The notes beneath the pieces were generated by a model that saw nothing but the letters and a program-made list of their open reading frames with translations, had not been told where the DNA came from and made no database searches. The position numbers and the translations under genes were made by a program. This document shows, in pieces, positions 2,460 to 3,195 of a stretch of DNA of 64,000 nt. The DNA is from Nitrospirales bacterium (GTDB lineage: Bacteria > Nitrospirota > Nitrospiria > Nitrospirales > UBA8639): assembly GCA_022828225.1 (NCBI GenBank), contig JAJEJG010000006.1:1-64000 (forward strand), written 5' to 3'. Within the stretch, counting starts at the first letter, position 1. Each line of letters opens with the position of its first letter.

Positions 2460-2488
2460 TTGACTAAACCGTTCTGACCTTTTAGGAT
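2460..2488 (+). promoter_or_regulatory. Predicted sigma-70 promoter of the pyr operon
   Basis: A TTGACT -35 hexamer (2460-2465) and a TAGGAT -10 hexamer (2483-2488) are separated by exactly 17 bases. Transcription would start near 2495 and give a leader of about 125 nt before pyrR. No other comparable promoter was seen in the gap. Confidence 0.6.
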
Positions 2489-2536
2489 GAAGACACCTTT
2501 AATGCTCATCCTGCGAGGTGAGGAAGGAGTTTTTTC

Positions 2537-2593
2537 ATGATTACGTGTTCGGGCAAATTCAGCCCTACATCCGTTAACCTTCGTCTCGTTTAG
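2537..2593 (+). CDS. Predicted pyr leader peptide (18 aa)
   Basis: A short reading frame of 18 codons ([18 protein letters not shown]) starts at ATG 2537. It is preceded by a strong Shine-Dalgarno, AGGAAGGAG (2521-2529), with a 7-base spacer, one of the best in the region. A run of U residues sits between the ribosome site and the start. The TAG stop (2591-2593) lies in the loop of the terminator hairpin that precedes pyrR, so a ribosome finishing this peptide would cover the 5' arm of the hairpin. The arrangement resembles the pyrBI leader of enterobacteria. Function is inferred from position, not homology. Confidence 0.55.
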
Positions 2594-2613
2594 CGAGAGG
2601 AAGGTTTTTTTTT
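2576..2613 (+). terminator. Attenuator hairpin ahead of pyrR
   Basis: The 5' arm (2576-2588) and 3' arm (2594-2606) pair at 12 of 13 positions around a 5-base loop, and are followed by a nine-T run (2605-2613). This is a textbook intrinsic terminator, but it ends only 6 bases before the pyrR ATG, so it must work as an attenuator of the pyr operon. The 3' arm also contains GAGAGGAAGG, the only Shine-Dalgarno-like sequence available to pyrR, so the hairpin may also mask translation. Confidence 0.75.
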
Positions 2614-2619
2614 GCGCTG

Positions 2620-3195
2620 ATGCACGTTATGTCGGGAACCAATCACCGCCACGAATCGGTCATCATGGACCGTTATGAAATGACGCGGGCACTGACCAGG
2701 ATTGCTCATGAAATTCTGGAGCGCAACAGAGGGTGTCATGACGTCGGCCTGGTCGGTATCCGTACCGGCGGGGTCTACCTGGCTCAACGGCTCAAGCAAC
2801 TGATTTCACAAATTGAGCAAACCGACGTTGTCCTGGGGGAATTGGATATTACGCTCTATCGGGACGATCTGGCCCTTCGCAAGGATCAACCCGTCCTGAA
2901 GAAGACCGATATTCCGTTTCATATTTCGGATCTCAAGATTATCCTGGTCGATGACGTGCTGTTTACGGGACGAACCATTCGTGCCGCCATGGACGGACTC
3001 ATGGATTTGGGACGGCCGGTGGAAATCCAACTGGCGGTGTTGGTCGACCGGGGACATCGGCAACTGCCCATTCGAGCCAATTACGTGGGGAAAAATATTC
3101 CGACTGCCAAAGATGAAAATATTCGAGTATTTCTTGAGGAATTGGGTGAAGAGGATCGGGTGTCCAAGCTCATCGATGCGGAGAGGACGGCATGA
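2620..3195 (+). CDS. pyrR: PyrR bifunctional regulator / uracil phosphoribosyltransferase
   Basis: The protein is 191 aa, close to the usual 180. The N-terminal segment with [14 protein letters not shown] is diagnostic of PyrR, and the PRPP loop [16 protein letters not shown] lies at about residues 107-122. In Bacillus, PyrR binds pyr mRNA in response to UMP/UTP and also makes UMP from uracil and PRPP. In other phyla only the enzyme role may remain. The start could be ATG 2620 or 2629; both lie just after the attenuator T-run. Its last four bases overlap pyrB. First in the operon, it is well placed to sense pyrimidine supply. Confidence 0.93.

Follow-up and report, generated by a model that had tools for sequence, protein, structure and literature searches.

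The window, that is, the whole stretch of 64,000 nucleotides of Nitrospirales DNA that was analysed, carries a pyrR-headed cluster of pyrimidine-synthesis genes with the following features.

2460..2488, plus strand: sigma-70-type promoter TTGACT-N17-TAGGAT (-35 hexamer TTGACT at 2460-2465, 17-nt spacer, TAGGAT at 2483-2488)
About 2496-2527, plus strand: predicted PyrR-binding hairpin, from a match to RF00515 and covariation in 107 leaders
2496-2500 and 2523-2527: lower stem of the hairpin, CCUUU with GAAGG, with an AAUG bulge at 2501-2504
2505-2510 and 2517-2522: upper stem of the hairpin, closed by the loop CUGCGA at 2511-2516
2521..2529, plus strand: Shine-Dalgarno (SD) sequence AGGAAGGAG of the leader peptide, within the 3′ strand of the PyrR hairpin
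2537..2593, plus strand: leader peptide ORF of 18 codons, from ATG 2537 to the stop codon TAG at 2591-2593 in the terminator loop
2576..2613, plus strand: intrinsic terminator with arms 2576-2588 and 2594-2606, loop TTTAG at 2589-2593 and nine T at 2605-2613
2576-2588: 5′ arm of the terminator, AACCTTCGTCTCG
2629..3195, plus strand: pyrR, the trans-acting regulator, 188 aa from the genus-conserved start; ATG 2620 is also possible
3192..13045, plus strand: downstream genes pyrB (3192), pyrC (4274), DUF4149 (5637), carA (6459), sppA (7630), M48 peptidase (8813) and carB (9740)

The genes pyrR, pyrB, pyrC, carA and carB may be transcribed as a single unit. The genes for the SppA and M48 peptidases (7630-9733, plus strand) are placed between carA and carB. 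Just 5′ of the promoter, an 85-aa ORF (2051-2308, plus strand) matches Cas2 (PF09827, 27.0 bits, cutoff 23.8), and no cas1 was recognised among the neighbouring genes identified in passing.

The consensus promoter named in a preliminary description of this DNA is present at 2460-2488 as claimed. A -35 hexamer TTGACA or TTGACT was found in all 54 Nitrospirales leaders, the script taking the best match within a small range, and the distance between promoter and binding loop is 26 nt in 51 of the 54. Because of this constant spacing, the placement of the promoter is not due to chance and the transcript should begin at the PyrR hairpin, with an inferred start near 2494-2496.

The predicted PyrR-binding hairpin and the PyrR protein

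The Rfam model of the PyrR binding site (RF00515) matches positions 2492-2612 with 50.6 bits (E 2.6e-6), and this match is the sole one in the genome. The score does not reach the gathering cutoff of 54 bits, so that the leader would not be filed as a curated RF00515 member on score alone. Among the 296 Nitrospirota genomes, 46 reach the cutoff, while the element is present in 208 when a PyrR-protein search of the relatives is combined with an RF00515 search of the phylum. Structurally, the window leader shows what characterises RF00515, namely the consensus loop on a paired stem together with the lower stem and bulge. Compared with the PyrR-site consensus and its N positions, which we take to be ARUCCNGNGAGGYU, the loop and upper stem of the window (CATC-CTGCGA-GGTG) agree in 12 of 14 letters, and the outermost A-U pair is replaced by C-G with pairing kept. 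The published form of the consensus reads ARUCCAGAGAGGYU (PMC7430163).

Across 107 Nitrospirota leaders from 25 families, pairs 1-5 of the upper stem are standard in 533 of 535 cells, with pairs 3-5 left free by a leader search pattern that fixed the loop and the first stem pairs. A-T, G-C, C-G and T-A forms were all seen, whereas slid-strand controls pair at only 0.30-0.53, and the loop consensus is CNGNGA. The stem of the PyrR hairpin thus shows covariation.

The PyrR protein of the window fits its NCBIfam model (NF003549, 234 bits, cutoff 138), matched 11 solved PyrR chains and keeps the RNA-binding residues, which we take from the mutagenesis literature to be T18, R19, H22, R27, R146 and K152 (B. 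subtilis numbering). In the hairpin-bearing genomes, R19 is found in 106/106 and H22 in 105/106 PyrR proteins. The leaders of family f4 lack the PyrR hairpin, and in the two PyrR sequences that could be read from this family the residues are D18, D22, N/D27 and A146, with an intact PRPP-binding loop. This matched loss of the hairpin and of the RNA-binding residues constitutes a natural test. A second independent loss is possible in L153 (family f26), where the protein has L27, C146 and R152 and the pattern search upstream found no hairpin. In family f21 (L154-L156, L159, L162), the protein keeps most of the RNA-binding residues, yet a pattern search of the 300 nt upstream of pyrR revealed no PyrR hairpin.

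The leader reading frame and the terminator

The SD sequence AGGAAGGAG ends 7 nt ahead of the leader ATG at 2537 and consists of the hairpin's GAAGG strand with the following AG. Since the 3′ strand of the PyrR hairpin is at the same time the SD of the leader, PyrR control is probably present here and would be aimed at leader translation; the preliminary description had implied that it was absent, and this reading of the leader is corrected. AAGG occurs in 107/107 leaders, although it formed part of the search pattern for leaders outside the Nitrospirales; some families have their SD slightly 3′ of the hairpin, by a few bases, rather than inside it. In family f13 the PyrR hairpin directly precedes the ATG of pyrR itself with no terminator between, and in Nonomuraea it likewise lies directly ahead of pyrR's own ATG. 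These two arrangements, with the hairpin on the ribosome site of pyrR, support the ribosome site after the hairpin as real.

A start codon at SD distance followed by a frame open to the terminator was observed in 104 of the 107 Nitrospirota leaders, compared with a fraction of 0.44 in shuffles. When one leader per family was counted, 23 of 25 had an ORF reaching the terminator, where 9 were expected from shuffles (P = 2.7e-9). In the Nitrospirales all 54 leaders have such an ORF and 46 start with ATG; the non-ATG starts of genus g4 are GTG, CTG or TTG, and the start codon is thus kept. However, the +2 frame is nearly as open, being free of stops in 83 of the 104 leaders. Frame openness was therefore dropped as a sole proof of coding, and the signal resides in the ribosome site and start codon, not in a coding pattern. 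Because the peptides differ between genera, a conserved leader peptide or regulatory codons were likewise abandoned.

The 18-codon leader described ahead of pyrR was confirmed in the window with its ATG at 2537 and SD 7 nt upstream, and its TAG stop (2591-2593) does sit within the hairpin loop (2589-2593). The window thus has an ORF extending into the terminator, with an SD that is shared with the PyrR hairpin, which is the arrangement of the proposed PyrR-gated leader-peptide attenuator. The place of the stop codon varies among the 107 leaders, from sites ahead of the arm through both arms and the loop to sites past the T run, and a conserved stop position in the loop was consequently rejected. 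What is kept is a limit on one side: the stop does not precede the terminator arm by more than about 11 nt. Of the conservation expected for this leader, the start codon and open frame (104/107) thus held and the stop position did not; the conserved feature would be that a translating ribosome reaches the 5′ arm of the terminator. Three leaders, L098 and L142 (family f33) and L136 (family f30), have the hairpin and terminator and lack the leader start codon or ORF; a switch to an antiterminator mode is possible in them. In L031 and L033 the leader ORF continues through the terminator to a TGA stop that overlaps the ATG of pyrR.

The 12/13-bp terminator with nine T also stood up to analysis, its fold having an energy of -19.1 kcal/mol and a z-score of -4.77 with 0/200 shuffles as good. 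Across genera, the 5′ arm pairs with its own 3′ arm better than with those of other genera (0/5000 permutations as good). A simple terminator-pattern scan of the window did not list the hairpin at 2576-2613, probably owing to its G-G mismatch.

The 3′ arm of the terminator was also claimed to carry the ribosome site of pyrR. In the window its GAAGG is 24 nt from the conserved ATG at 2629 and 15 nt from the alternative ATG 2620, distances greater than an ordinary SD would have, and additional translational control of pyrR is therefore weak here; in several families the distance of 7-8 nt makes the claim reasonable. In eight leaders (L083, L093, L098, L133, L137, L140, L050 and L066) a short stretch of T separates the 3′ arm from the pyrR ATG, and the terminator hairpin could hide the SD of pyrR. 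A mainly translational device, in which the terminator hairpin or the leader hides or couples the ribosome site of pyrR instead of ending transcription, would find support in the several families where GAAGG-T7-ATG of pyrR takes the 3′ arm as SD, in the leader ORFs of L031 and L033 that end on the pyrR ATG, and in family f13 without a terminator between hairpin and pyrR. In the window, however, neither route works well, because the 3′ arm lies 15-24 nt away from the start of pyrR and the leader ORF ends in the loop, and nine T after a hairpin of -19 kcal/mol make a strong terminator. We therefore regard this explanation as very unlikely. In L058, L059 and L065, a second mini-ORF directly after the terminator (GGAGG-T7-ATG) ends shortly before pyrR, which suggests translational coupling to pyrR.

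Probable control of termination by leader translation

The element ahead of pyrR is probably a PyrR-controlled transcription attenuator that acts through a ribosome. From the layout we infer PyrR binding, a response to nucleotides, translation of the leader and its effect on termination, which would be connected as follows. Transcription would begin immediately 5′ of the PyrR-binding hairpin. With ample UMP/UTP, PyrR loaded with nucleotide would hold the hairpin, including the SD in its 3′ strand, and no ribosome would load on the leader. The terminator at 2576-2613 could then form, ending transcription before pyrR-pyrB-pyrC-carA-carB. When UMP/UTP is scarce, PyrR would release the hairpin and a ribosome would translate the 18 codons; on arrival at the stop codon in the loop it would cover the 5′ arm of the terminator and let the polymerase read through. 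The peptide and its codons would be irrelevant, as the presence of the ribosome alone would count. Judging from the leaders compared, the same layout is conserved across the phylum Nitrospirota. The earlier proposal that a ribosome on the leader prevents the terminator is most likely right, considering the SD, start codon and ORF in 104/107 leaders.

In a Bacillus-type attenuator, the 3′ strand of the hairpin would pair with the terminator 5′ arm when PyrR is missing, PyrR would act as an anti-antiterminator, and the ORF would be incidental or secondary. The RF00515 match does span the whole Bacillus-like leader (2492-2612), and the SD strand has its complement in the terminator 5′ arms, both sides being altered in family f2. 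On Nitrospirales transcripts cut before the terminator 3′ arm, this pairing has a mean probability of 0.73 and exceeds 0.5 in 42/54. However, own 5′ arms were not significantly better than swapped ones for the antiterminator (P = 0.078), in contrast to 0/5000 for both the terminator and the PyrR hairpin, and the pairing is nearly absent in families f10, f14, f15, f18, f31, f34 and f38, all of which have the ORF. In Nitrospirota the PyrR hairpin is favoured over the antiterminator by a median of 2.1 kcal/mol. In the B. velezensis controls, the alternative fold is favoured by 3.8 and 4.8 kcal/mol at two of three sites (-0.5 at the third), with an antiterminator pairing probability of 0.96-1.0 at all three.

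Before the 3′ arm is made, the two folds of the window leader are nearly isoenergetic: the antiterminator has -19.8 to -21.7 and the PyrR hairpin -20.8 to -22.9 kcal/mol, values that vary with the assumed transcript start, and the difference stays within about 1.3 kcal/mol. On the whole leader, the antiterminator is 7-9 kcal/mol worse, and its pairing would mask the conserved leader SD. By these energies, many Nitrospirota genomes could form an antiterminator of the Bacillus type, though a weaker one that is not found throughout. Such a fold may contribute in certain lineages; it leaves the ORF unexplained, and as the main mechanism we consider it unlikely.

The preliminary description had instead seen the logic of the enterobacterial pyrBI operon, where UTP-dependent pausing of the polymerase couples it to the ribosome and PyrR is not needed. 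The brevity of the leader peptide and its end within the terminator loop fit this logic, as does the run of six T at 2530-2535 between SD and ATG. However, a T run of at least five between SD and terminator occurs in the window genome only (1/107), the other 106 leaders having at most four, and UTP-dependent pause sites, judged by this sequence correlate only, are thus not seen as a conserved feature. In addition, the PyrR site is conserved, and is lost together with the PyrR residues. A conserved pause hairpin in the spacer was also considered and rejected: hairpins of the GGGCA-TGCCC type are striking in some genera, but taken together the stability of spacer hairpins does not clearly exceed that of shuffles (mean z -0.44). 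With the T run, the stop position and the peptide sequence all unconserved, pausing of the pyrBI type is unsupported and, in our view, extremely improbable. From the preliminary interpretation, the opposition of leader translation and terminator is retained, while the pyrBI logic and the absence of PyrR control are not.

Relation to known pyr control systems

The E. coli pyrBI attenuator has a leader peptide overlapping the terminator, UTP-sensing pauses and no PyrR site. It thus shares the overlap of leader and terminator with the Nitrospirota leaders, but its pauses are not conserved in them. In Bacillus pyr attenuators (RF00515; PMC7430163) this PyrR-binding hairpin is likewise found, with a terminator ahead of pyrR, but they differ from the Nitrospirota leaders in a strong antiterminator and in the lack of a start codon for a leader. 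In line with this, in five of six Firmicute pyr leaders no start codon follows the hairpin at SD spacing. For Mycobacterium smegmatis, translational repression by PyrR is indicated by the title of Fields and Switzer 2007, as cited in PMC13328217. In that mode the PyrR hairpin and a ribosome site share sequence; a comparable arrangement is found directly on pyrR in family f13 and in Nonomuraea, whereas in the window the ribosome site is that of the leader peptide and the proposed output would be termination.

In the literature searched, which covered few PyrR papers, no report of such a layout in Nitrospirota was found. We lean towards the view that PyrR-gated leader translation represents a third general mode of PyrR action that is used throughout the Nitrospirota, the other two being the antiterminator of Bacillus and the translational mode of mycobacteria. 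If this is true, direct pyrR-site, leader-peptide and mixed forms as well as losses occur within one phylum, and transitions between modes become traceable and testable. To our knowledge, the notion of a metabolite-loaded RNA-binding protein that controls ribosome access, and through the ribosome a terminator, goes back to a single untested proposal of 1997 for a Thermus strain. It now gains comparative support from more than 100 genomes, and further support from a natural loss with matching protein changes and from a sister family with the hairpin on pyrR itself.

That proposal, by Van de Casteele et al. in 1997 for the pyr attenuator of Thermus ZO5, reportedly has a translating ribosome in place of the antiterminator, and is said to be a model derived from sequence and not a proven mechanism. 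Thermus ZO5, a strain of another phylum, reportedly has pyrR first, followed by pyrB and pyrC, with a terminator and proposed PyrR-dependent control in the leader, as here. Among the control genomes, Thermus composti matches RF00515.
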